Shown here piece after piece: positions 3,425 through 45,865 of a stretch of 49,682 nt of DNA (position 1 is the first letter of the stretch; each line of letters starts with the position of its first letter). Made by a program: the position numbers and the translations under genes. Under the pieces are notes generated by a model. That model did not search any database, had not been told where the DNA came from, and saw only the letters and a program-made list of their open reading frames with translations. The stretch spans positions 1 through 49,682 of the forward strand of contig BLSF01000124.1 of NCBI GenBank assembly GCA_012862575.1, given 5' to 3'. The stretch comes from Parietichytrium sp. I65-24A (taxonomy: Eukaryota; Sar; Bigyra; Thraustochytrida; Thraustochytriidae).

Positions 3425-4738
3425 TCAATCAAGAAAGACGCCTCCGTGGTTGTTGTACATGTTGAGCGATCCCGAGCCAGAGCAATCCTTGCGAAGCTTA
3501 AAGTATCCGCCTTGGCCCCATCGAGATCCCCAACTGTTCTTCACGTTGAAAACCTCCCAGGTCTGACCATTTGCCATTCGCACTGCGTTGTTCCACCCAG
3601 TCATTGTCACAGCATGGGTCATTCTGTTACCCCCGGTGCAAGGGTAAACTCCACTCACGTACGACTGCAGCGGTCCACCATTGAGCACAATCACCATTGG
3701 AGCCATATCCAAAGCTTGCGAAAATCCGTGGTTGTTCGCCGGTGGGCGACCCCAGTGCGAGCTTCCTGTGGTATAACGAGGGCCGGCAGGGCAACGATTG
3801 GTATCTACCCCAGCATAAGGCAGATCGCTTTCGAACATAAAACCATTGCATGTTTGCCTGTTGAAGTACGTGCTTGGCCATGCTCCATTGCATTGATTTC
3901 CTCCAGTACACTCCAAGTTGTATTGCTCCGAAAGGTCAGTGTTGCCACTGTGGTACCCAATGTTGCCAAACCAGTTGATCACAGAGCTCTCCGCAGCTGC
4001 GGTGACCGCGAAAGAACTGCAAGACCCACAGCCACCTTGATTCTTCACTGGCGTGACGAAACTCGAGCCATGAGAATTCCTCCAGTCGAACGCAGGCTTG
4101 GTCTTGTCGTAGGAGTAGTACGGAAAGTCTACCTTGCCACATCGGATGTGTGAGAGCTCGCGGTACTTGTTACTTCCGTCTTCGTCGACGATGTCATCAG
4201 GGACGTCCTCGGGAAAATTCTCGAATGGGGTGAGGAAGAGGGTCTCGAATTCGCCGCTGGAGAGATGGCTAAACTCGGTTATACCGAAAAGGGTCTCACC
4301 ACCACCTTCCAAACTATCCTTCAAGGCTTTCTCCACGTTGCCTCGAAAGATTTCCACGCGCTGTTTGAAGGCAGAGTCGCTAGACATTGCCTCCTCCAAG
4401 AGTTTCACGGACTGCGGATTGGAGCCTTTGTACTCTGCAGCAAACTTTAGCTCTCTCTCGAGGAATGCTTTAAAAGCTTCCTCGGGATTTTGGAGAGCGA
4501 GCTGGAGCTCTCTGAGCGTATCTTCGCGGAGCTTTTTGAACTCGTCGAGGTCAAAGTCGGTAAAGCTAGACTTCACTGGGGCTGGTTCCGTTCCATCTTT
4601 TGGTGGCTCGGGTGCCGAGACTTCATCTTCGGTTTGCAGGATGCGAAGTGCGGCACCACCGCTACGCAGCGAGGTGACATCCGCTCGGGCGCAGTGGCAA
4701 AGGGCTGCGAACAACACGGCAAACGATATTTTGGCCAT
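3425..4738 (-). CDS. Papain-family (C1A) cysteine protease, cathepsin-like, copy 1
   Basis: The 437-residue preproenzyme starts at an ATG at 4738. A signal peptide covers about residues 1-19 (AALCHCARA near its end), so the product should enter the secretory or vacuolar route. The propeptide resembles the I29 inhibitor fold, with FKQRVEIFRGNV near 124-135 and FGITEFSHLS at 151-160. The mature domain begins near FDWRNS (217-222). Catalytic residues are visible: oxyanion Gln234 (KNQGGCGSC), Cys240, His375 (MTHAVTMTGW) and Asn401 (VKNSWGSRWG). The residue after the catalytic Cys is Ser, where papain-type enzymes nearly always have Trp. The neighbouring gene at 6483-7709 is a same-strand paralogue with the same domain order and similar motifs, which points to tandem duplication. 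It presumably cleaves peptide bonds in an acidic compartment. Confidence 0.93.
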   Translation of the reverse strand: MAKISFAVLFAALCHCARADVTSLRSGGAALRILQTEDEVSAPEPPKDGTEPAPVKSSFTDFDLDEFKKLREDTLRELQLALQNPEEAFKAFLERELKFAAEYKGSNPQSVKLLEEAMSSDSAFKQRVEIFRGNVEKALKDSLEGGGETLFGITEFSHLSSGEFETLFLTPFENFPEDVPDDIVDEDGSNKYRELSHIRCGKVDFPYYSYDKTKPAFDWRNSHGSSFVTPVKNQGGCGSCSSFAVTAAAESSVINWFGNIGYHSGNTDLSEQYNLECTGGNQCNGAWPSTYFNRQTCNGFMFESDLPYAGVDTNRCPAGPRYTTGSSHWGRPPANNHGFSQALDMAPMVIVLNGGPLQSYVSGVYPCTGGNRMTHAVTMTGWNNAVRMANGQTWEVFNVKNSWGSRWGQGGYFKLRKDCSGSGSLNMYNNHGGVFLD

Positions 4739-5084
4739 CTTTCCTTACTTAGTGTAGGGATCGATCGAGGGCTCTTTCTGAACTGCTTTTGCTTTCGTCT
4801 CAAGTTCTTCGGGTCGCTCGGGTCGCTTTTTCGTTTGGTCCTGGATTCGATTTCTGTTTTGGGGTTTGCTGGTGTTTTGATTTGGGTTTTGCTGGTGCTT
4901 TGATTGCTGCTCAACAGCTCGCAGACTTGGCTTGGTTTGGCGTGAACGTATTGCAAAATGTACGACAGACTCTTTCTAGTCCAAAGAACAAGGGCGTTCG
5001 GAAAGAGACTTTCTTTAGATCTTTTGCTGACCTTCTCCCGCTGATCTACAGCGTCTTTGCCACTTGCCAAATTTTGTCTTGAAA
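4739..5084. promoter_or_regulatory. Upstream region of protease gene 1
   Basis: These about 350 bp separate the start of protease 1 (minus strand) from the truncated repeat copy B. The stretch is rich in TTTTG/GGTTTG words and holds no gene. It should contain the promoter and 5' leader, but I cannot point to a specific TATA box. Confidence 0.4.
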
Positions 5085-13365: not shown

Positions 13366-14345
13366 TTAGATTTGGTGGGAGAGCACGAAAAACTGCATCG
13401 CATTCGCAGAGGTACCATTCTCAAAGTCGATGACGCAAAATTCCGGCTGAAATTCGAGGTCAAGACCATCGTCCTGTTTTATGTATGCAAATAGAATATT
13501 ATCACCATCAAGGTCAGTATCACGTCTTACCACCTGTGTTCAAAGAAAAAGAAAAAAGTGCACGAGAGACTTACCGCAAGGTATTTGCGACCAAAATAAA
13601 TTGCATCCACTGCACGGAAGACTGGATTCTGACCAACCGCTGTTATTTTCACCCGCTTGTTTTCTCGTACGTTCTTGGCGATCGCCCCAGCAAGCTGAGA
13701 GGTGCCAGATTTTCCGGCAGACTTTAGGGTTTGGTGCGCAACATTCTTGGATTGCACCCGAACGAGCACTTTCTTGAGATTGAGCAATATGAGATCCTTG
13801 ATATCCCCACCTGGCTCACCACGATGAACCTCGACAACCAAATCGATTGAATTATCTTCCAGATACGACCTTGCAATGGCGATGGCTTTAACAGCCTGAT
13901 TTACGGATGCAGGGCCAACAGCACTCAGGATTGGGGGCTCCGCCTCGCGCGACGTGTGGGCGATGGAGCCAGCCAGCTGCTTGACCGGGCTAGAAGATGC
14001 CACAGAGAGCACCTTTCTTCCTTCGGCAAACGCTGGAAGGCCCTTCGACAAGCTCAGAGCTCCACCTTTGCGGCTCCGTGTCTCTGGCTCCTGTCCTCCT
14101 GTTGCACTACTGTTGTTGTTGTTGTTGTTATTGTTGTTGCTGCTGCTGCTGTTGCTGCTGCCGCCGCCAAGGTGACTACCGGTTACACCGTTGTGTATGC
14201 CTCCCTGAAGGTGATGGGTTGCGGCATCCATCATGCCATGCGGCATCCCGCGATCTATCGATGTGTCTGCCCTACTTTGCGAAGTAATACCGCTATCATC
14301 CGCGCCGCTGTTCTCGCCCATTCCCAGCGCGCTCTGCAGATTCAT
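13366..14345 (-). CDS. Tandem SpoVS-domain (Alba-fold) protein, two exons
   Basis: The gene consists of exon 1 (14345-13575) and exon 2 (13533-13366), separated by a 41-nt intron (13574-13534) with GTAAGT donor, a T-rich stretch and ACACAG acceptor. Splicing is in phase 0 and gives 312 residues. The N-terminal 105 residues are low-complexity, with a run of 9 Asn flanked by Ser and Gly. Two related domains follow: about 110-195 with SAVGPASVNQAVKAIAIAR (141-159), and about 196-300 with TAVGQNPVFRAVDAIYFGRKYL (starting at 235). The first motif closely resembles bacterial SpoVS (IGAGALNQAVKAVAIARG). SpoVS proteins adopt an Alba-like nucleic-acid-binding fold; in bacteria they influence sporulation. 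Here DNA or RNA binding is inferred. The first in-frame ATG is at 14345. Confidence 0.8.
13534..13574 (-). other. 41-nt spliceosomal intron in the SpoVS-like gene
   Basis: On the minus strand the segment reads GTAAGT at the donor, then CTCTCGTGCAC, a T-rich stretch and AACACAG at the acceptor. Removing it continues the second SpoVS-like domain for 55 more codons to a TAA. Reading through it gives a hydrophobic-phenylalanine run and an early stop, which looks artificial. Confidence 0.8.
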
Positions 14346-15020
14346 CGCGACTTGTCTCTTGCTTGCCACCCGCCAAGTCCTTCTCGTCTTTTCGCGCTCG
14401 CACAGCGCTGTCCACACGCTCTTAGCTCCTTCCGCTCCACCAAGTGCTCTCCGCGCTCTTGGCTTCCTTTCCGAACTGCCGACTACTGCCGACACTCCGC
14501 ACTCTTTCACTCTTTCACTCTTTCACAATTTCGCTGTTTTGTCGCTCTGCCGGCGAAGCCACGCCCGTCTTGTGCACTGTGGTCACAACCAACCTCTAGG
14601 TAGCGACCGCAGAGAGCTGCTGATGACTGACTGATGGAGTTGATTGATTGATAGATAGGTCAAATCCAAAGGAATTCGGGGCTTGCGGGCCTGCGACCTT
14701 GGCCTACCTCTCTCTATCTCTCTATCTCTCTTGCTGCGCTCTGTATACGCCGTCCGTCTAGGCTAGTGCTCGCCCTCTGGTAGCTAGCACTCCGCTCTCC
14801 TGCAGACGACCGTACTCAGGGTAGCCTCCTTCTTGGTCAAGCCTTCACTGACTGTGTGAGAGTGCTACAACCACCTCGGATTAAGGTTTAGTGCTCTCAC
14901 AGGCACTGTCTCTGCCACTTTGTGCCACTCTGTGCCACTGTGGTCGTGTGGTGGATGAGTGGGTGAGAAGGTGAGTAGAATTTAGAATTTAGTTGAGTGA
15001 CTGATTGATGGGTGGTGCCT

Positions 15021-15193
15021 TCACTCTCACTCTCTCTCTGTCTTTCTGCACCTTCTCTTTCTCTCTCTGTGTCAAGTTCTCTTTCACGTCCTCTCAGAGT
15101 CCCTTTGTTCTCTCTCTCTCTCTCACCGGGTAATGGACGTGAGGAAGAAAGGGGTTTGGCTCCCGCCTTCTCTCTCTCTCTCTCTCTCTCTCT
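15021..15193. repeat. Long CT-rich microsatellite region
   Basis: Runs of CTCTCT broken by short unique words; reading frames through it give Ser/Leu-rich or Glu/Arg-rich peptides on the two strands, which are artefacts. Confidence 0.85.
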
Positions 15194-16718
15194 TGCCGCG
15201 TTTGGTACTTGTGTACCAGCACCTCTCTTTTGCGAGCTTGACAATTAAATTTGCTCAGGTTTTCGATCAAATTTTGCTCAGGGTTTCGATCGAGCTTTGG
15301 CGGAAAGTTAGCTCTAGAATGAGGCAAGGTCAGGTCAGGATTGTGACTCGCGAGGGCAAGTGTCAAGTAACTGGTCGTTTCGAACGCGCTGCGCGGCGAA
15401 TTCCTGAACTGCAAAGACTGCAAAGCTTGGAAGGCTGTATCGTCTTTCGTTTCTTTGCTTCTTTGTTTGACCCGGAGATGACCGAGCCTGTTGTTGTTGT
15501 TGTTCTTGTTGGGAGAATGCGCACCTAGTATGCTACACGCTGTATGCGGCGGCAGCTGACTGACTGGCTCGCTCGCTCGCTCGCTTGCTGCTGGCCGACT
15601 ATTTTGCCGTCCTTTTTTTTTATCTCTTTCTTCTTGCTGTTTACGTTCGCTTCCGCGCAAGGCCAAGAAGAGTTCCTACCAACTCACGGTCAAAGCTTTG
15701 TCTGACTGGGCAAAGCAGCGAGCTCTGCTGTTGCCGGATGACGGATGACGGATGAGGTGATGGGGAATTGGATGTGTTGACTTTGGTAGATTGGCAGATG
15801 GGCAGCGAATGAATGAAAGCTTGAATGAATGCGCGCCAAGTCAATGGAGCTTTGGGTGTCCTTTTCTTTCTCTGAACACACAGGGCTGGACTGTTGCAGG
15901 CCTTGCTGCGAGCCCTTCCTATTTCCTTCCAAGTTCCCCCACCGCTCGCTGACTTGCGTCCTGAAGTGTGCTGCCGCTCTGAACGGCACCGGTGCGGAAG
16001 GGAAAACGGGGAAAACGGAGAGAAATGGAGATTGCGGACGATGCGTATTTCGCGCGTTGTGCGTTGTGCGTTGTGCGTTGTGGTTTCTGGATCAAAGATT
16101 GCACACGACGCCTTTCTGTTTCTGTTTCTCTTTGTATTTGCATTTGCATTTGCATTTGTGTTTGTTACGAGCTTTTGTCGACGAGGAGGTTTGATTCGTC
16201 TGTCCATTCTTCAACCTTCTACGATCTCTATGATTCCAGGACTTTGGCTAAGCTAGGATCTAAAGTTGACGATGGACCAAGCACTATTTCACCGTCGATT
16301 GACTGTGAATGAATGAAAATGAATTGAAAAGATGGCAAACGCAGAAAGGAAAAGGCAAAGAGGAAGGAAAGAAAGAAACGCGCAAGGTGGTAACAGCGAA
16401 GAACATTGAACGGATGATGGACGGGACTGACGGGACAGAGTTGATTTAAAAAAAGGATGAATGATGGATAGATATGATGGATGGATCGATCTACTGATCA
16501 GTTTACGAGTCAGCGAATTCCAGTATAGCTGAGCACCTAGTCCTCCTAGCCGCCGCGCTACAGCAAACGAAAGAAGCGGCAAATAGCGTCAGAATCAGAG
16601 TCAGCGAAAAGACCAACTCTGCGATGCGTCTTCCACTCTCTTTTTTACCATCACCTGATCGCCGCTAAGCTATGCATAAACTTATCGCCACTGTCCATCT
16701 GAACTGCATATCTCCCTT

Positions 16719-27656: not shown

Positions 27657-29681
27657 TTACTTTTCGGAGGAGGCAGGAGCTGCTGGAGCTGCGTCCTTAT
27701 CATCCGCTCCTGAGCTCGGGGACTTTTTCGCTTTTCCCCGCTTATGCTGGATTTCAAAAGTGTACTGACCACGTAACGTGAGAGCCCCATCACTGCCCTC
27801 CACCTTTCGGGACTGAGGCTTTCCAGTAGCGCGCCCCCCGCGCCCTCCACGACCACCTGGCCCTTCATGGCGGTGGCCGTTGTTATCCTTGCGGTCATCG
27901 CCGGATCCCTGGGCACGGTGACCCCCGGCGGTGAGGCCATGCCCTCCATCGTGGCCACCACGACCGCGACCACGCCCACGGCCGCGGGGTCGATCCTCGC
28001 CACCCCCGGTACGGTCGCCTCTTCCGCCTCGCGAGGTAGAGGAAGAGTCGTGCCCACTTGGGCCGCCAGGCTGCTGCGAGCTGGAGTAATAGCTTCCGCC
28101 GCGGCCGCCGCGTCCTCCCCGGCCGCCGCGTCCACCAGAGCCGAATCTCGTGCTCGCACCCCTGCCACGGCCACGGATGTACGGTGCGTTTGGTCCTCGA
28201 GAGCGAGGTCCACCACAGAGCAAATTCGTTTGAATCGGCGCTCTGTTCTGCTGTTCTGCAGCAGCGTATTCACCGTAGTCAAGCAAGATTCCGCCATTCA
28301 TCTTTTGCCCGTTCACGACTCCAAAGGCGGTGTCACCTGTAAGATTGTCCACCTTGTACACCCTTGGCCCATCGTAGGCGCGCTGCGGGCGCGGCGCCTG
28401 CTCGCCGTCGCCAGTCGAGGCCTTGCCCTCTTCATCTTGACCGGCGGCACTGCTCTTGTTGGTATTTTCTTCCACGGCCTGATCGCCCTCAGCGTTTGGA
28501 GCGCTGGAGGACTCCTCCCCGTTTTCAGACTCCTTGACAGCGCTCTCCTGCGAGCTCTGCTCTGCTTCTTCTGATTTCGCCCCATCGGCGCCGCCCGCTT
28601 GGAGCTGATTGGCGTTTCTACCGCGGTAATTTGGGTTGCTGAGATAATTGACGTTCTTGAGCAGGTAAATCGGAATGTCTCGGATAAAGATCCACCTGAG
28701 CTGAACAAACTTCTTGTCAGAGTCAGGCACTGGCAAGAGCTCGGACATCATTTCAGCCACACCGACAACCTTTCGAAGGGATGGGATGGTCATAAATAGA
28801 ATCACTGGTCCGAGTCCAGCACTGCTACCAATAGACTTTTCTAAAAGCTCTTCTGACTCTGGAGTGTCCACGATCCATGCTGACCTCTTGATATATTGAA
28901 ACACCTCCATCTCGTTCTCGCACTGGATGACAATGTACTCTCCGCCTCGCGGCTTTGGTTGATCTACGTTCACGTATGCAAGAAAATTGAGCGAGCAGAT
29001 TGTTCTAAGATGCTTGGCGCGAATATCCACCTCGCTCCACTCTGCTGGGAGAGTCTCGCCCTGAAGGATCATGTTGTGAATTTCCTGGGGCAAATTGCAC
29101 TGCATGGAGAGAATGTGGAAAGGATCCATTCCGTAACCTGTCGCCGTATTAAAGATGTACTGTGCCTCCAAGAACAACTGGGCGCTCTTCTTGACGGATT
29201 GCACCCAGGACTTGGGGTCCACAGCATTTCGCTGGGTTGAGTTGGCGGCATTCGTGCCATCTCCCGCATCTGCGGAAGGACCAGCGTCGCTGCCGTCCTG
29301 CTTTTCCTGGTCCTCCGGGTTCTTCAGCAGACCAGCCCAGGACTTGGCCGAGTCTTCGACCTTGAGCTCACCCATCTCTTTTTCCACGCCGGTTTGGTCC
29401 TTTCCGTCCTGATCAGAGCTGCTGGTTGGCTGTTGCGGCGGAGCGTGGTGCATCATCGGCATTGGCATCGGCATCTGGCCGTACATTGTTGGCTGAAACA
29501 TCATAGCTTGCATCCCATAAGGAACTCCAGGCGTGTAGTACGGATCGTATCCTGGCGCGCCTGGCATTGCCCCATAGTGCGGCATGTTGTAAGCACCGGC
29601 ATGTGGCGCATGCTGCTGTTGCTGCTGCTGCTGCTGCTCCTCCGAGCTGCCGTCAGCGCCCTCGTGATGACTTTCTGACAT
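27657..29681 (-). CDS. YTH-like domain RNA-binding protein with RGG tail
   Basis: The first in-frame ATG (29681) gives 674 residues. The N-terminus (1-90) has a Gln run and a Pro/Met/Tyr/Gly-rich, prion-like region, as in YTHDF proteins. A partly helical region (about 155-240) follows. Residues about 245-345 resemble a YTH domain: EYIVIQCENEMEVFQYIKRSAWIV, GPVILFMTIPS, VVGVAEMMS (305-313) and FVQLRWIFIRDIPI (325-338). YTH domains read N6-methyladenosine in RNA with a tryptophan cage. Trp269 is present, but the segment that normally supplies the other two Trp is shortened to a few residues without Trp. The tail has acidic Ser/Glu-rich and then RGG/RGRGRG-rich parts (about 500-640), expected to bind RNA or to be arginine-methylated. 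It is probably a cytoplasmic RNP component. The YTH assignment rests on motif likeness only. Confidence 0.75.
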   Translation of the reverse strand: MSESHHEGADGSSEEQQQQQQQQHAPHAGAYNMPHYGAMPGAPGYDPYYTPGVPYGMQAMMFQPTMYGQMPMPMPMMHHAPPQQPTSSSDQDGKDQTGVEKEMGELKVEDSAKSWAGLLKNPEDQEKQDGSDAGPSADAGDGTNAANSTQRNAVDPKSWVQSVKKSAQLFLEAQYIFNTATGYGMDPFHILSMQCNLPQEIHNMILQGETLPAEWSEVDIRAKHLRTICSLNFLAYVNVDQPKPRGGEYIVIQCENEMEVFQYIKRSAWIVDTPESEELLEKSIGSSAGLGPVILFMTIPSLRKVVGVAEMMSELLPVPDSDKKFVQLRWIFIRDIPIYLLKNVNYLSNPNYRGRNANQLQAGGADGAKSEEAEQSSQESAVKESENGEESSSAPNAEGDQAVEENTNKSSAAGQDEEGKASTGDGEQAPRPQRAYDGPRVYKVDNLTGDTAFGVVNGQKMNGGILLDYGEYAAAEQQNRAPIQTNLLCGGPRSRGPNAPYIRGRGRGASTRFGSGGRGGRGGRGGRGGSYYSSSQQPGGPSGHDSSSTSRGGRGDRTGGGEDRPRGRGRGRGRGGHDGGHGLTAGGHRAQGSGDDRKDNNGHRHEGPGGRGGRGGRATGKPQSRKVEGSDGALTLRGQYTFEIQHKRGKAKKSPSSGADDKDAAPAAPASSEK

Positions 29682-30895
29682 GTTTGGCCGCACTCCAAAT
29701 GATAGACTCAAGCACAACGCCTACGCACGCAATGCCAGTCCCACACACAGAGACACGGCTGCACAGAGACTTATATATATATATACCCTACGCGAACGCG
29801 AACTCGAGCACGGATACAACAAACACGTGCAAGTTCGTGTTTGACTTGACTCTATTCACCGTATTCCCACTGGACCAGATTCGCGTTCAATTCAATTCCC
29901 GCTCTCTAACGCAGACCTTGCCTCACGATCCCACGCCCAACTCCTTATTCCACAACCGCTTACCACCCTTGCCTGCCCTTGCCCTAGCCCTTGCCCTTGA
30001 ACCGCGCGCACGTACCCACGCACGAAAGCCTATCTGCACTAATGCTGAGCCTAACGACACCCCACACCTGTGTGTCCGCGAACCTTCCTTCCTTCTCCCA
30101 GCGAGCCTTCCTTGTCCTGCGCAGTGTGGGTGAGAGGAGAAAAACTTGGATACCGATGACTTGGATCCTGCCGCAGCAGATCACCAAGTACGCCGTCAAT
30201 GCCCTCGGTGGACGCTGTGCCGCTGCTGGGTCGCGAGCTGGATTTGAATTTGCTCCGCTGCTTCTAACGTTTACGGTGAGCATAGGATAACGCACGCCTC
30301 AGGGGCAGACAGGGAGGTAGTGGGCGCCTTCCGTATGGCTGTCTGGGATTCGTGAGGTTCCTCGCTGGGGCCTATGCCCACACATATTTACCACAGTAGC
30401 AGAGGGTTAGGGTTCGCTCCCGTACTTCAATAGGAGAACAAGTAGGACTAACCATACTCTAAGACTCTTCAGGAAACTGTCTTAATACTGTTTTCGCGGG
30501 AGGAACGAATTATGAGGCGCTTCCATAATGCAGTTACTATTGTATCCAGTATCAAAGCTCGTGGAGAGCGCATTTTGGATACCCAAAAAGAATTATCCAC
30601 GGACCACCATGGACCACCCTCTCTGTCCGGTGGTACTTTATACTAGTCCCACTACTACTACTACTACCGGTACCGAGATAGAGAGTGCTAACTCAGCTAT
30701 GTTAGAGCGGAGACGGATCCCGATCAAGATGCACTTTTGGCTCTGAATTGGGACCTCACAGAGTTGGGCCACGGCGTACTTTGGCACGTGCGCGAGGACC
30801 GCGCATTAGGCTAGGTTTGGTTAGTCTGGGTTAGGTTGGTTTGGTGAGGTTGGGTTAAGTTGGGTTAGGTTAGGTCGGGCCGCGGAGGGGGGAAA
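29682..30895. promoter_or_regulatory. Divergent promoter region between YTH-like and phosphatase genes
   Basis: A 1.2-kb spacer between two divergent starts. A TATATATATATATA run (about 29772-29785) lies roughly 90 bp upstream of the YTH-like ATG. On the other side a TTAGG/TTGGG-rich stretch (30806-30878) ends 17 bp before the phosphatase ATG. An ACTACCGGTACCGAGA palindromic word lies near 30661. No gene is seen. Confidence 0.5.
30806..30878 (+). repeat. Degenerate TTAGG/TTGGG repeat, telomere-like
   Basis: The stretch consists of GGTTAGG, GGTTTGG, GGGTTAAG and GGGTTAGG words with irregular spacing. It is G/T-rich on the plus strand and directly precedes the phosphatase start. It resembles degenerate telomere repeats, but could equally be a promoter element. 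Confidence 0.55.
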
Positions 30896-32720: not shown

Positions 32721-35700
32721 TTAGTAACTACCAAGGGGAACAAAGACGCGCTCGATATCCTCCAAATCCCCCAAGCCAACTGGTTTGTGCCATTGGCACT
32801 GGCCATTGTACCTGTTTTGATAAAAATACTCTCCGCGACTGGGCTCGTACACCTTTTCGAAGCTCTCGTAGATGAGGAATTTGAAATGCCGTTGGGCCAA
32901 ACGCGCTCGGTAGGCAGACTGAAGCGCCACGGCGGCCTCCTCCCTTGTCCAGACGTGGTTCTTTTCACGTCTTCGTTTTCCGAATTTTATAAACTTGGCG
33001 TTGAGTGTCGGCGGAGGAGTCCAAGAGCTTCTCCCAAGCCACACATAATAGTAACGACAGACCGCAAAGTCGTAATATTTGAACGTTGCGTCGTACAAGG
33101 CACGCACAAATCGTAGCCGGGAAAGGTAATTGCGGACACAGTTCTGGATTACAAGAGCCGATCGATGCTGCATCCTTCGTCGAGCCATCCACCCACGAGC
33201 GATTTTCTGCATCTGAATCGCGGCCAAATGTTGTTTTGCAGCCACGCGGCCAAAAGGGTCCTCGCGCAACTTTTTTGTCTTCTCCTTCATTGCAATGGCC
33301 AGCTTCTGCTTCTTAACGGCACCCGAGACGGCTGCTTTCCGGACCATTTTCCCGGGCAAGTGCATCAAGTCATCAACTCGAGCAACTTTGCGCTCGAAGC
33401 GCTCCATGAATTCTGATTGAGCGATCAAGTTGCCGTACTTGGGACCGAAAGAACGTATCGCTGCAACCTTGAGCAACTTTCCAGCTCTGGTAGTTCCAAG
33501 ATACTTCTTTTCAACACTTTCTTCGGGCAACTTTTCGTTTTCGGATCCATCCAACAGCCGACATCGAAGGTAGTCCTCCGGAACTTCACCTTCGCGCCCT
33601 TCGGCAATTAATTCTTCCGCATAATTGCAGTATTCTTCGCAGACAAGGACTATTTCCTTGATCTCTTCATTGGTTTCCAGAGCAAAGTCATGCACATTGA
33701 GCACCTGATCTTCCGATTCGTCATCGCTGCTAATATCGTCATCGTCACTTTCGTCAAGATCGCCGTCTGAGTTTGGCCTTGGAGCTTTCTTCTTTCCTCC
33801 GAGGAATTTCGGCTGAGCGGCTTCACTCTGTTGCATCTTTTGATACCTCTTTTGCAGTTCTCGGAAGAGGAACGTGGCTGCTTTCATCCTTTTTGCGACA
33901 CCTTTGGCCTCTCGCAGCGCAAGAGGGATATTCTCCGCCTTCACTGCCCTGACAACCTCTGGAAAGTGGTAATGAGCGAATTCGATTTGTTTTGCCTCGA
34001 ACCCAAATTGCTCTTCGCCTATAGAAAAGAAATCGACGGTTTGCATAAGTTTTTGAAAACGGTATTCCAGAATGCCGGGCACAAAACATTCAATGTCATC
34101 TCTGAGCTCATCGAGTTTCGCCCTCCCCGTTTTTGGCTTGATTGCATTCTCAAACTCCTCGAACGCTCTGTAGTCTTCAGCTTCCTCTTCCAAAATTCGA
34201 TTTAACTCGTCCTCAGCAGCCTTAGTTTTATCGTAAACTGCACGTTCCGAGCGTACACGATCTTCCAGTCTCGCTATCTCCTCAGTCGCCAGACGAGAAG
34301 CTTGCTCTTGGGAATTTTGGGTTACTAATCGCCGGTTTTCCAAGAGCTCGAGCTTCGTCCGCAGCTTGCTCAAATACTCCTGAAAGGCGAAGTTGGACTC
34401 GTCTACAGCCGATTGTTGCCATCGAACCATCTCGTTAAGCGGGCCCTCGCTAATGCGAATGTCTTCAGCACACAGTCGCACCTGCGCGAGATACTTTCCG
34501 AGGCCCACTTCCACTGCTCTGAGGGCGCGGTAATTTTGAAGCGCCATTGCTCCGGTCAGTGTGGCGATCAGTTCCTCGCATTTGCAAAACAAGCGGTACC
34601 CTCGAGAAAAGGCTTCCTTTTGGCACTTCAGCAACTTGGTTCTCTTACTTTGGCCGCTCATTACCATAAACCGGATCTCATTCATGGATGCCGTGAAGGC
34701 AGCCAGTTCCTTTTGGGAGAACGATATTTCCTGATTCACTTGCTCAATGGTGACATCGTACTTGCTCACCACATTCTCAGCAAGTCTAATCTTCTCATCC
34801 AAATACTCCGTCTCGAGCCGAAGCATATTGTGCGTGTCGAGATCTTCGACACTTGTCTCAAGCTTTTGTTCTTCAAGTTTTTTTGACGATGATTTCCAGC
34901 GAGATATGTCGTCTACAAGCTCCTGGCGCCTGATTAAGGTGTCTTCAAGAACGTCTCTACTCTGTCTCGCGCGCTCAACAAAAAGCGCTGCTCGGTTTGT
35001 CTCGCTTGCGCATTCTAGCAGCGCCGCCTCCTGACTAATCAGCATCTCCACTTCAGACACTCTGGCCATTTGGACTTGTTTGTAATCGTGAAAGTCAATC
35101 CCGAAAAGCCGTGATGGTGCCATGGAATCTGAGAGTGCTTCCAACACATCGTGATCGAACTGTGCGTTTGCGCAAGTAGAAAGCCGGAAAGGGGTCGTGA
35201 TGCTATGAAACACCTTGTCGAAGGCTTCGTTAATCACCTTTGACGTCCACATTTTTGCAGCGCGGCTGCGACAGCTCATAATATTTCTTTCGCTGCTGAG
35301 ACTCAGATTTACCAGAATTCTCCTGCTAGTAGATTGTTTGATCTGTGCAAACATATCGGGAGTTGTTTGTCCTATCTCGGACATCGCGCGAGCAAAAGCA
35401 AACGCAGCGGAAGAGCGGTCTGTCACTGTCTCCAAGACAGAATTGCTGTTTTCGACATTGACGTCTCGTTCGTAGACTTGTATTTTGTCAACTACGATTT
35501 CATCCTCTCGATTCGTTGAAAGAGAGGATGCCTGCTTTGTCTCTGCCACGGCAAAGCTTGCGAACACGCTTTTCCAAAGGGCGTTGGCTGCTCGCTCTCG
35601 CTCCACACTTGCGAAAGCACTCGGAAGCTTCACCCTCCCGTCCGAGCGGAGAAAAAGCTTTTCAACAATATTGGCCCGCTCGGCCTTGCTCGAGAATTTT

Positions 35701-37946
35701 ACCGACACCAGAAATTGTATAATTTCCAAAGCAAGTCTTTTCGTGCTGCGGACGTTTATGCCTTCACTGGCGAGAGCAGAAGCAAAGCATGCCAGAGTCC
35801 AATTCCCCAAAGAAACGCTCTGATGCAACCCATTCGACAACTGGAATTCCACCCGAAGGTCTCCACTCTTGCTTGTAACTCGGACGCAGCCGAGAACGTA
35901 CTTGCTCGAATTCTCCACTTTAACTCGCGCCGCGCCCTTGAATAGAATTGCTCCTGGAGTTCCAAACAGATGTATTCCAGCCTCCTGATGCTGCATTGCG
36001 CGGTACCAGAACAAGTATTCTCTAAAGCAGCGCTGAATTTTGCTTGCAGCGGTGTGCTTTCTTTGCTCGCTTAAGAACAATACCATTAGCCTGCTTGAGC
36101 GAACTCTGTACTGGTTCTGAATCCGTATTGCTGCACCTCTGCAAATAAGAAAATCGCGACGGTTCAAATACCCCCTAAACGTAGCCTGTATTTGCTTTGC
36201 AGCATGTCGTCGAACCGCCAGACCTTGCGGCCGTCCAAACACATATTTTTTAGCGACGTGCATACGATACGTGGCCTGAATCGCAATCGCGCATTCTTGT
36301 CGCTTTGACCTGAGTCGTCGGGCAGCAATGTAAGCTTTTTGAGCAAGAAGCACTCGTCCAAAACGGGAGATGACCGTCGCAGCAGCCCGGCAATTCTTGA
36401 ACTTTGTGCGTTGACGATGCATTCGCCAAACAGCTTGAAACTTGGTTGCGGCTTGCTTACGCCGATGATTGAGGTTTGCTTTGCTGCGCCCAACTCTTCC
36501 GCGAAAGACCGCCTGGAGCTTGTTCGCGGCACATTGCCTTTGTCGCTCTTCCTTGGCACAAATTATTGACTTGGCCCAAGATTGTATTTTCAAAGCAGCT
36601 CTGCTGCGCTTTAAGTTCAAGATGGTAGTGCACTCAAAGTACCTCCGCAGGGTTTTCTGAATTACAACTGCAGCTACCTCGCGTTGCTCTAGTGCCAAAG
36701 CCGCAAGATGCAGATCGTGCAAGACTTGCACCTGTTCGACGAGCTCTTCCATGCACTCTTGCACGATGGAGTCGCGAATTTTCTGCCTAAATTTGATGAT
36801 CTGCCGCGCAATGTACGCCCGAGCAGCCCTCTGAATGGCGCTAGCCGCATGAAACCGTTTTCTTGCGCTTTTGACAGCCTGCCTTGCGACATACGTTCGC
36901 CAGAACTGCTGCAATCGAAGTGCACCGCGATATTCACTTAGGGTGATACAAAATAAACGCCGAATAAGGTGCCCCCGAGCTAAACTTTGAATCTTTGTTG
37001 CGCTCTTATGCCGTTTCAAGAGCCCGTAGTCCCCGTACACGAGCACCCTTGCCGCAGCCATACGAAACACGGACTGAATTTTGATGATTGCCAAGACTTC
37101 CTTTGACACTACAACATCACCTTCAAGTTGGAGACCAATTCTCTCTAGTTCCTCTGTCACAAGGGTCCCATCGAACACAACCAAATCCGTTCCCCCTGCA
37201 TGCGGGCTGCGGTCCTCGTCGTTATTATTCGCTATAACGGAACCCTGCGCTCTTGCAGAGCCCGCCTTTTTTAATAATTGAGCGGTTGGCTTTTGCTGGA
37301 CAGCGTGACGCAGAAACTGCATCCATCGAAGCGCCAGTCGTTCATCTTCGCAACCCAGCATAACAACTTTTTCCCGCCCAATGTCTGTGGCTCGCACCGC
37401 AAAGGTATGCAGCCCAACTTGCCCTTTTGCAGGATTGTCAAGAATGCGTAGTCCCTGGCTGGACACCACCGAGTGATCATCTAGGCACAGCACCGTCTCA
37501 GCAATTTGATCAGCCGGACTATGAAACTCAGTGAGAGATCGGGTTGCCGGATCCAACACGAAAAATGCCTGCGCCCACTGCAGCGCAGCGTCGAGGCCAT
37601 CAACACTGTGAATCGGTTCATTTGCGAGGTCACCTTTGCGAAAGAGCCAGCCTTTCGCAGCCCCGTAGTCGCCAAGCAAGGCTGGCAGCGGTCTCTGCCC
37701 CATGGCACGTCCAGGCTTTCTCTTTTGAAGTCGTTGAATTTCCTCTTCTTGCAGCTTTTGTGCCTCATCTTTCCCCATCCGCCCAAACGGAGCTGCTCCA
37801 AAAGCCCCGCCGTCTCCTCGCCTGGGCCGCTTTTGGCCATATTTTCTCCGGCTCGCGTGTGGCTTTTCCCGGGTATCGCTGCTGCCGACTGCTTGAGCGC
37901 TCATGAGAGGCGCCAGCAGCGGCGCTCTTCCATTTCGACGCCTCAT
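32721..37946 (-). CDS. Giant PH-IQ-coiled-coil-WW-like scaffold protein
   Basis: The first in-frame ATG (37946) gives 1,741 residues; a second ATG 14 codons later is also possible. A PH-like domain lies at about 96-218 (AAKGWLFRKGD...ERLALRWMQFLRHA). About thirteen IQ or IQ-like motifs follow between 288 and 650, for example IKIQSVFRMAAAR, ATKIQSLARGHLIRR, ANKLQAVFRGRVGR and AKQIQATFRGYLNRR. These bind calmodulin or EF-hand light chains. The central part is alpha-helical with long coiled coils (about 1000-1340) and an acidic run (SDGDLDESDDDDISSDDE). Near the C-terminus three more IQ-like motifs occur, with WW-like segments containing YYYVWLGRSSW and GEYFYQNRYNGQCQWHKP. There is no motor domain, so it is not a myosin. 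A calcium/calmodulin-regulated cytoskeletal or membrane scaffold is the best inference. I do not recognise the exact family. Confidence 0.85.
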   Translation of the reverse strand: MRRRNGRAPLLAPLMSAQAVGSSDTREKPHASRRKYGQKRPRRGDGGAFGAAPFGRMGKDEAQKLQEEEIQRLQKRKPGRAMGQRPLPALLGDYGAAKGWLFRKGDLANEPIHSVDGLDAALQWAQAFFVLDPATRSLTEFHSPADQIAETVLCLDDHSVVSSQGLRILDNPAKGQVGLHTFAVRATDIGREKVVMLGCEDERLALRWMQFLRHAVQQKPTAQLLKKAGSARAQGSVIANNNDEDRSPHAGGTDLVVFDGTLVTEELERIGLQLEGDVVVSKEVLAIIKIQSVFRMAAARVLVYGDYGLLKRHKSATKIQSLARGHLIRRLFCITLSEYRGALRLQQFWRTYVARQAVKSARKRFHAASAIQRAARAYIARQIIKFRQKIRDSIVQECMEELVEQVQVLHDLHLAALALEQREVAAVVIQKTLRRYFECTTILNLKRSRAALKIQSWAKSIICAKEERQRQCAANKLQAVFRGRVGRSKANLNHRRKQAATKFQAVWRMHRQRTKFKNCRAAATVISRFGRVLLAQKAYIAARRLRSKRQECAIAIQATYRMHVAKKYVFGRPQGLAVRRHAAKQIQATFRGYLNRRDFLICRGAAIRIQNQYRVRSSRLMVLFLSEQRKHTAASKIQRCFREYLFWYRAMQHQEAGIHLFGTPGAILFKGAARVKVENSSKYVLGCVRVTSKSGDLRVEFQLSNGLHQSVSLGNWTLACFASALASEGINVRSTKRLALEIIQFLVSVKFSSKAERANIVEKLFLRSDGRVKLPSAFASVERERAANALWKSVFASFAVAETKQASSLSTNREDEIVVDKIQVYERDVNVENSNSVLETVTDRSSAAFAFARAMSEIGQTTPDMFAQIKQSTSRRILVNLSLSSERNIMSCRSRAAKMWTSKVINEAFDKVFHSITTPFRLSTCANAQFDHDVLEALSDSMAPSRLFGIDFHDYKQVQMARVSEVEMLISQEAALLECASETNRAALFVERARQSRDVLEDTLIRRQELVDDISRWKSSSKKLEEQKLETSVEDLDTHNMLRLETEYLDEKIRLAENVVSKYDVTIEQVNQEISFSQKELAAFTASMNEIRFMVMSGQSKRTKLLKCQKEAFSRGYRLFCKCEELIATLTGAMALQNYRALRAVEVGLGKYLAQVRLCAEDIRISEGPLNEMVRWQQSAVDESNFAFQEYLSKLRTKLELLENRRLVTQNSQEQASRLATEEIARLEDRVRSERAVYDKTKAAEDELNRILEEEAEDYRAFEEFENAIKPKTGRAKLDELRDDIECFVPGILEYRFQKLMQTVDFFSIGEEQFGFEAKQIEFAHYHFPEVVRAVKAENIPLALREAKGVAKRMKAATFLFRELQKRYQKMQQSEAAQPKFLGGKKKAPRPNSDGDLDESDDDDISSDDESEDQVLNVHDFALETNEEIKEIVLVCEEYCNYAEELIAEGREGEVPEDYLRCRLLDGSENEKLPEESVEKKYLGTTRAGKLLKVAAIRSFGPKYGNLIAQSEFMERFERKVARVDDLMHLPGKMVRKAAVSGAVKKQKLAIAMKEKTKKLREDPFGRVAAKQHLAAIQMQKIARGWMARRRMQHRSALVIQNCVRNYLSRLRFVRALYDATFKYYDFAVCRYYYVWLGRSSWTPPPTLNAKFIKFGKRRREKNHVWTREEAAVALQSAYRARLAQRHFKFLIYESFEKVYEPSRGEYFYQNRYNGQCQWHKPVGLGDLEDIERVFVPLGSY

Positions 37947-39080
37947 ATACCCCCCGGCGCGTCTGCCATGTGCACGACCTTCCTCGCTTGTCGCATTGGC
38001 GACCAAACCTCGCTCGCCGAAAGCTCCGTTTGTCAACTCCTCGAGCGTTCTCCTGTTCCTATTCTTGCTCCTGCCCCTGCTCCTGGAATTGTTGCTGGAT
38101 GTTGGTGCGCCTAGAAGCTTCTACATCACGATTCAATTTTACTGCAGGGACTGACTGCTCCGATAGCGTGTGATGGTGTGACTCCAATCTGTGTTTGCCA
38201 ACATTGAGTCGCGATTTACAGACAATCTTTCGTTCAACCAAATGCTTTCTTTCACAGCGCCTCGTGACCAGCATCCCAGACACTATTCCGCAACGTCCAT
38301 CTTTTTCCCATCTTGCTCGCCCGTCGGGTCCATCTCGAACATGCAAACCATAGACTCAAGAGCCAAAACTCACCAGTCAGATTCTTTCAGTAATTCACAT
38401 TTATGCTGTTGACTCATCGCATAGTCTTTCTACTAGCTGCAGCTAGCCGACCGCAATCTAGGTTACCAAGGTGTCATAAGGGTTTTCTAGGGGTAACTAT
38501 AAATATATCCGGTGAGACGTGTTGTTTCCAAAGTATTTCGAATTAGTTCCGAGTTGCAAGCTGTCAAAGTTCATTAAGTGCATATAAAAGTTGTGTGAGT
38601 TTTCCATTTGGCCTTTGTCGAGTTTGGGAAGGATAGACGTAGAGTGAGCCGATAGTGGAGATGTTTGGTCAAGAGAAGAATAGAGGCAAGCAAACGAATG
38701 AGTTAGTGAGCTGTGAGTTATGAGTACACTCGCAAAGCGCACAGTCCCATTGGAACAGTGACGGTGAAACTAGAAAGGGCAGGCCGTGTTGTGTCGTGTT
38801 GTGTCGTCCGTATCACGGACACAATCACGGTCTCTCACACGCCGCATCTGCCTCACTTTAGCTCTTGTTTCTCTCTTTCGCTCCGGCGTTCGTCCGTTCG
38901 TCCGTTCGCTCGCAGGCTCTGTCGAGGAGACAGCCGTGGCCTGCGCGAGGAGGAGAGTAGTGCTGTCATATCCAAGGGGGAAAGTGCGCAAACGGGGACG
39001 AATGGGCATGAGACTTTCACTGGCGTAGGAGACCGACCGATCGATCGTTCACACGCCAAGCGAACTGGCGGACTGGCAGC
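37947..39080. promoter_or_regulatory. Divergent promoter region between IQ and coiled-coil genes
   Basis: A 1.13-kb spacer with no gene. Short repeats of GTGTTGTGTC (near 38790) and GTCCGTTCGTCC (near 38890) are visible just upstream of the coiled-coil gene. A TATAAATATATCC word at about 38500 is a possible AT-rich element. Confidence 0.45.
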
Positions 39081-44257: not shown

Positions 44258-45865
44258 ACTTCATCTTGTCTGCATAAGGATGTTGCTGCTTATAAAGCTC
44301 GAAAGTATGCTGACGGAAGAGTTCCAGCATGTTCCAGCAATCGATTGCTTCTTGGACCCGTCATCAGTATGAAGTGTATCTGGCACTACTGGTACTGTAC
44401 GATCATCGTGCAAGCGGGAACATCGGCCATCTCCATCGTGATCATCATGATGTCCAGAATCACAACTGAGCCGTATGGCTCGGGCTATACAGCTGCTCAC
44501 TGTCATTCGCCTCCGCTGGGACGCAATGTGGAACTGGTGCTGTGAAACTGCGACTGGACATCTCTACAGCAAGCTTTGTTGACTTTACATTTTACAACAT
44601 GTACAACTTTAATCTTGATCAAAAGCAAGTTATGATGGACTGCGCATGGCTTTGGTATCTTTGGAAATCTCAAATGGAACCTATGAAACCTCGAAAAACC
44701 TACTGGGAGGCTTCGTCTGCACTGCTTGATGCCGCTTGTAAAGTAAGTCGATTGAAAGTGCATGGGTTTTCGAAACTGACAACCTTCATTTTCCTTTGTA
44801 CGTACTACCAGTACAAAATCGGATACTAAGGTATCAGTACAGTACTCTGTTGAGGAATTGCGAAACTGCAGAATTCAGAATTCACTGTCAGATACAAAAG
44901 CGAGGCAAACAACACAAGTGTTAATAATAGCTTCGAGTCAATACATACCGGTACCCGATACTTCGCTGTCAGCCTGAGTGCCAAGTGGTACTCGTAATAG
45001 ACTTAATATCTACCGCGAAAATCAAACTGCGCTTGCTCTGCTGGCCTTGAACCCTCCAACCACTTATTGACTTTCACGTGGACGTCAGTGGTGTCGGGGC
45101 AGAGACACTAACACTGGCTACTCATTGTGAGTACCGAGTACGTACCTGCTGCTGACTGTGCTGACTGTGAGTGACAAAGTACGTACACGTACTATTCACA
45201 TTAACCAGTACTACTGCGTACTCGCCCTCTTTACCAGAGATCATAGCCACTATTAGTTCCGACACAGAACTAGATAGCACCGGTACACACTGTCTGGAAC
45301 ACTGTTTGCTCTTGTCTGAAATTATCGAGTTGTTGTTGATGTGCTCTGGTTTTAGATTTGTAATAAAGATTTGCCCACAATCTGTCAACAATCAACCAAT
45401 TGAAGTCCATCATCGATCAATCCATCAACCAGTTGAGAAATCGTTGAGAAATAGTTGATGATCAATTCAGCGCAGCGGATGCGTAAGACAAAAGAGACTT
45501 TTGTAGCTTGAGCTCAAGGTAACAAATTCTGCCCAGCGCAGTATCTTGCACTTACTCCAAACTGACAGCGACAGCGATGATCTTCCAAGTTGGAGATGGT
45601 TGGAGTGTCGAGAGAGTGAAGTACAGTACAGTACTGAGTACCGGGTACTAATAATCAATTCTGAGAGCAAGCACGTTCATGCATAGGAAGACGGTGCGCT
45701 GGACGCCACGATTGCCAGTGTACCATGAGGATGAGTCGGAGAAGCCATCCCACTATGCATTGGTTACAGCTGCTCACTTTGCTCACTGTCGTTTGCTTCC
45801 GCTGGAAGCAGGCAGATCCTGAAAGGCAAGTGTACTAGTAGCGTTGTTGTGACGAGATTGACAAG
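44258..45865. other. Spacer rich in GTAC words between tRNA and small membrane protein
   Basis: No convincing gene. A plus-strand frame from 44470 to 44829 carries a splice-like GTAAGT at 44743 and a CTGAC/pyrimidine/CAG acceptor-like end at 44811, but its product is unrecognised. A 30-40-base segment (ACAGCTGCTCACT...CCGCTGG) occurs twice, near 44489 and 45768. GTAC-containing palindromes are very dense at 44795-45290 and 45619-45655. Confidence 0.4.
44795..45290. repeat. Cluster of GTAC-core palindromic words
   Basis: The stretch contains TACGTACTACCAGTAC, CAGTACAGTAC, ACCGGTACCCG, GAGTACCGAGTACGTAC, AAGTACGTACACGTAC and CAGTACTACTGCGTAC. Similar words are found in other spacers of the window and hardly in the genes. 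They may be binding sites or remains of short palindromic repeats. Confidence 0.5.

Follow-up and report, generated by a model that had tools for sequence, protein, structure and literature searches.

SpoVS is a small domain known chiefly from bacteria and their viruses. The question raised by the locus described here is whether two such domains stand in tandem within one intron-containing gene of a eukaryote and, if so, from where this gene might have come and what its product might do. The host of the gene is a eukaryote. Ten long frames neighbouring the gene in the window (the whole stretch of DNA analysed, 49,682 nt in length) were compared with Pfam. Nine gave matches and one gave none, the families, mostly of eukaryotic type, being papain-type protease, SIR2, lipase-like hydrolase, YTH, metallophosphatase, TBC, CLC channel, C2H2 zinc fingers and ankyrin-DnaJ. 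Among 11 long frames of the window, third-position GC ranged from 0.53 to 0.63, and the exons of the SpoVS-tandem gene (0.56 for exon 1 and 0.60 for exon 2) were alike in this respect.

SpoVS modules of the predicted protein

By reading of the frame, the gene is located on the minus strand, with the ATG at 14345 and the stop codon ending at 13366; the coordinates 13366-14345 of the original prediction are thus those of the coding sequence. After removal of an intron of 101 nt, the product is 292 amino acids long and includes two domains. The features are as follows:

13575..14345, minus strand: exon 1, codons 1-257, in which a low-complexity N-terminal region is followed by module 1 and by the first half of module 2
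14106..14159, minus strand: Ser/Asn run, residues 63-80, from the translation
13743..14018, minus strand: SpoVS module 1, residues 110-201, from Pfam, the structure model and PDB
13575..13733, minus strand: exon 1 part of SpoVS module 2, residues 205-257, from Pfam
13474..13574, minus strand: probable intron of 101 nt, GTAAGT...AAAACAG with TACTGAC inside, from the splice scan and the completion of module 2
13474..13533, minus strand: disputed 60 nt, intronic in the 101-nt form and adding 20 codons in the 41-nt form
13366..13473, minus strand: exon 2, which holds codons 258-292 with the stop and encodes the C-terminal hairpin of module 2, from Pfam, PDB and third-position GC

An Asn/Ser-rich region ahead of the modules had also been predicted, and the translation places it at the Ser/Asn run listed above. 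Long simple repeats rich in CT are located upstream of the gene, at 14970-15200.

The presence of two related SpoVS-like modules in one protein was borne out by Pfam, since both modules matched the SpoVS family (PF04232) above its curated cut-off of 24 bits. The two modules together scored 131 bits in two stretches. Module 1 alone gave 59.1 bits, covering profile positions 2-61 of 83, while the score of module 2 depended on splicing: the 101-nt splice gave 76.4 bits (positions 1-82 of 83), the 41-nt splice 63.3 bits (positions 1-58) and the unspliced frame 49.4 bits (positions 1-53). The modules are 42% identical to each other over 52 amino acids, with a Smith-Waterman score of 80 against a highest score of 48 in 2,000 shuffles. 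When a SpoVS profile built without any sequence from the window was run over the 1,251 stop-to-stop frames (25 amino acids or longer) of the window, the exon 1 frame ranked top with 98.8 bits, followed by the exon 2 frame with 9.1 bits (E 0.084), and no further SpoVS gene was detected among these frames.

In Pfam at E up to 10, the protein matched SpoVS and two weak unrelated families, and no Alba family profile was among the matches; NCBIfam gave no family for it. The sole strong match in a PDB sequence search was SpoVS of Thermus thermophilus (2eh1, 2ek0), obtained through module 1 at E 1.2e-8, and module 2 with the 101-nt splice was aligned end to end with 2eh1, to residue 87, at E 8.9e-12. 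The Pfam matches of both modules, the splice scan described below and the frame scan of the window thus support the predicted occurrence of tandem SpoVS domains in an intron-containing eukaryotic gene, the splice being read from the domain. Judged by its sequence, the protein is a variant holding SpoVS domains and not a canonical SpoVS protein, which is small and of one domain; we do not file it as the latter because the NQxxK motif is replaced in module 2.

Length of the intron

The original prediction had placed an intron of 41 nt at 13534-13574. For the splice scans we used a SpoVS profile made without window sequence from 83 homologues, consisting of 71 distinct viral-contig rows and 12 rows from phage and plasmid records. 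The first scan took in 369 GT-AG pairs, with 190 products reading past the junction, and also the unspliced form. In it the 101-nt intron (13474-13574) ranked first with 121.7 bits, the 41-nt intron third with 103.6 bits and the unspliced form 20th with 99.9 bits. A wider scan with GT or GC donors and lengths of 20-600 nt included 5,732 pairs and 4,386 single-intron products reading past the junction, of which 3,521 were reported. The 101-nt intron again ranked first of the 4,386 products, the runner-up (114.0 bits) used the same acceptor, and the remaining products stayed at or below 104.5 bits. Both introns use the donor at 13574, and it is the 3' end of the predicted intron that we correct: the acceptor at 13474 completes the second domain and outscores that at 13534 by 18 bits. 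With the 101-nt intron, module 2 becomes a full-length SpoVS domain without an insert of 20 amino acids.

The composition of the disputed 60 nt differs from that of the exons. Its third-position GC is 0.20 (4 of 20), against 0.56 and 0.60 for exons 1 and 2, and such a count would arise with a probability of about 0.0006 if the rate were 0.58; its total GC is 35%, and that of the first 41 nt of the intron 37%. It also includes TACTGAC, which we take to resemble the branch point consensus. Thus the intron is probably of 101 nt, on the evidence of domain completion and composition, and the 41-nt form may represent an alternative acceptor.

We consider it rather improbable that the 41-nt intron is real or the main form, giving a module 2 in which 20 inserted residues separate helix 2 from strand 3, or that both acceptors are used for two isoforms. 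The acceptor at 13534 carries a strong pyrimidine tract, better than that of 13474, and the disputed 60 nt is open and in frame. Its codon score is indecisive, 17% of 365 coding windows being as low or lower and 76% of 940 background windows being at or below this score. These points are set against the 18-bit lower score of the 41-nt form in the splice scans, its score lower by 13 bits in Pfam, and the above-noted third-position GC.

Addition of a second intron on top of the first gave 857 products with a best gain of 2.9 bits, and one removing 57 nt from module 1 gave a gain of 2.8 bits; neither is believed. The window contains six intron-like motifs including that of the SpoVS-tandem gene. 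At two of the others that were inspected, no clear coding flanks were found, so that no yardstick was gained from them. One intron-like stretch of 69 nt, GTAAGT...CTGAC...CCAG, is located at 44743-44811 on the plus strand between flanks without a clear coding frame.

Fold and divergence of the two modules

Structure modelling covered module 1 and exon 1 alone, the halves of module 2 being in different exons. The model of module 1, made from 42 rows, had a mean pLDDT of 77.9 and a pTM of 0.71, and showed the order strand-helix-strand-helix-strand-strand with all four strands and both helices; the loop between the last two strands was of low confidence (pLDDT 52-64 in model residues 71-90). Four PDB structures matched this model at E 0.001 or below, all SpoVS, one of which is an entry titled YunD-SP5S from crosslinking MS. 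The best match, SpoVS, gave a TM score of 0.70 by query and 0.82 by target. Alba chains followed from rank 5 (E 1.6e-3 and above), and RNase P/MRP chains (Rpp20/Rpp25, Pop6/Pop7) were among the ranks after the first Alba chains. Module 1 is thus predicted to have the SpoVS/Alba fold, and the matches to SpoVS and then to Alba indicate that the modelled fold is kept despite the rebuilt end of this module. Exon 1 modelled alone was weak (pLDDT 56.3); its top matches were SpoVS at E 2.4e-3 and above, with no structure match at E 0.001.

The AVG glycine, the alanine following it and the helix-2 residues N, Q and K are conserved without exception in the 83 homologues, the viral part of which is 71 distinct rows from the best 80 of at least 167 relatives. 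Module 1 (AVGPASVNQAVKAIAIARSYL) retains the AVG glycine and all three helix-2 residues, while module 2 (AVGQNPVFRAVDAIYFGRKYL) retains the glycine and has lost N, Q and K, the positions of the NQxxK motif being held by F, R and D. The alanine after the glycine is absent from both modules, replaced by P in module 1 and Q in module 2. The second module had been described as the more diverged of the two. This is true for helix 2, but in the C-terminal half it is module 1 that diverges: module 2 matches SpoVS to the end and keeps the canonical hairpin, whereas module 1 leaves the profile at position 61 and continues into a longer, different hairpin unmatched by Pfam. One half thus carries the conserved motif of helix 2 and the other the canonical hairpin, as in a natural dissection of the SpoVS domain.

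With bacterial SpoVS (PF04232; 2eh1, 2ek0) the protein shares the domain family, the predicted fold and, in module 1, NQxxK. It differs in that two unlike domains are joined in one spliced eukaryotic protein, with module 2 lacking NQxxK and module 1 having another hairpin.

Origin and possible function

A scan of viral contigs matched at least 600 stretches, at least 167 of which encode a relative. The best 80 of these were taken, giving 80 matching frames, 71 of them distinct, each with one domain and of at most 125 amino acids. In this they differ from the tandem protein, which nevertheless matches the phage SpoVS family (PHROG 35646) at E 2.1e-18. Phage records gave 12 matches with E no higher than 0.01. 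Plasmid records gave 7 matches, and 17 when searched with a bacterial query at a limit of E 0.001. One phage match, whose two pieces seemed to span 80% of the query, is not a tandem, being a single domain of 86 amino acids. In two scans of prokaryote genomes, 76 and 55 stretches matched the patterns and none encodes a relative; each scan used six short exact peptide patterns, two of six and one of six including presumed intronic residues, and these scans therefore exclude close kin only. The same limit applies to module 2, for which no relative was found in two scans of viral collections, one with the 101-nt product. No tandem SpoVS was found in viral contigs with patterns demanding NQAVKA in both copies at a spacing of about 81-91 amino acids, patterns which would miss the SpoVS-tandem gene itself. 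Within these limited prokaryote, phage, plasmid and viral searches, neither a tandem nor a close relative was detected. No title or abstract opening among the papers listed for SpoVS and eukaryotes describes a SpoVS of eukaryotic origin; the sporulation protein discussed in a passage of PMC8119650 is SpoVK, not SpoVS.

A tree of 32 rows, including 30 of the 83 homologues less than 80% identical, gave the modules long end branches (2.99 and 4.09), a supported place for neither and a long-branch warning on module 2, and it points to no donor. Neither module is more than 44% identical to any of these 30 homologues. Constraining the modules together cost 1.5 log units (p-AU 0.394), so that this grouping was neither rejected nor confirmed. 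Module 1 adjoins viral rows, but these were fetched by their likeness to the query and the placement is therefore no evidence. An old transfer from bacteria followed by duplication is plausible; because the tree places neither module, we infer, rather than observe, both the arrival of the gene from bacteria or phage and its duplication within the eukaryote.

That the gene is bacterial DNA misassembled into the eukaryotic contig, or very recently inserted there, is hardly credible. All SpoVS relatives were found in phage, plasmid and viral-contig records, a weak point in its favour since these collections are without eukaryotes, while the second domain needs splicing, the protein carries a Ser/Asn run, its third-position GC is like that of the neighbours, and both modules show the low identity to the 30 tree homologues given above.

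According to passages of PMC11621453, SpoVS is assigned to the Alba superfamily, dimerisation is a general feature of Alba proteins, and Gly43 is linked to RNA binding. The AVG glycine of both modules would correspond to this Gly43. On the basis of these published facts and the glycine match, we propose pairing within the chain and binding of RNA or DNA; a nucleic-acid-binding role is suggested by analogy, from the Alba-like fold of module 1. A SpoVS gene would have arrived from bacteria or phage, and would have been duplicated and fused in the eukaryote, after which the halves would have specialised. The two modules may pair within one chain, like the dimers of the Alba family, and the pair may bind RNA or DNA, with module 1 as the carrier of the conserved face and module 2 mainly as its partner. 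This reading as a whole, that is, a gene with one 101-nt intron for a 292-residue tandem SpoVS protein of bacterial or phage origin, duplicated into an asymmetric nucleic-acid-binding pair, has in our judgement about an even chance of being right. Set against it are the absence of the conserved alanine from both modules, their mild charge, the weak model of exon 1, the low-confidence hairpin of module 1 that Pfam leaves unmatched, and a tree that supports neither a sister relation of the modules nor a source for them.

As to known Alba pairs (archaeal Alba1/Alba2, Rpp20/Rpp25, Pop6/Pop7), the likeness would lie in the related fold predicted for module 1 and, by analogy, in two unlike partners per unit. 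In those pairs, however, the partners are separate chains and belong to the Alba family proper, whereas the SpoVS tandem is one chain without a match to an Alba profile. More speculative is the possibility that a bacterial or phage SpoVS, domesticated in the eukaryote, forms a single-chain asymmetric pair of Alba type, as a second independent route, from SpoVS and not from Alba, to an RNA-binding pair like Rpp20/Rpp25, and it is equally tentative that one half would supply the NQxxK face of such a pair and the other the canonical hairpin. If true, Alba-fold pairs in eukaryotes gain a source other than Alba itself.

A fair though less probable alternative is that the protein acts as a scaffold or binds other proteins, its fold serving such contacts and not the binding of nucleic acid. 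The match of module 1 to the YunD-SP5S entry, judged by the entry title alone, implies that contact with another protein is possible for a SpoVS-like chain, and the modules are only mildly basic (+2.1 for module 1 and +0.9 for module 2). However, the structure matches of module 1 include nucleic-acid binders, namely chains of Alba, Rpp20/Rpp25 and Pop6/Pop7, and the AVG glycine is kept in both modules.

Some other frames of the window, all on the minus strand, were noted. The frame at 6486-7778 matches Peptidase_C1 at 2.8e-35 and is the papain-type protease, of which the frame at 3428-4744 resembles a paralogue by eye. The frame at 27660-29720 shows a weak match to the YTH domain (3.2e-6) and a long RGG-rich end, and its product is likely, as judged from these features, to be a second RNA-binding protein in the window. 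At 32724-38120 there is an intronless open frame of 1,799 codons, in which repeated IQ-like stretches were seen by eye.
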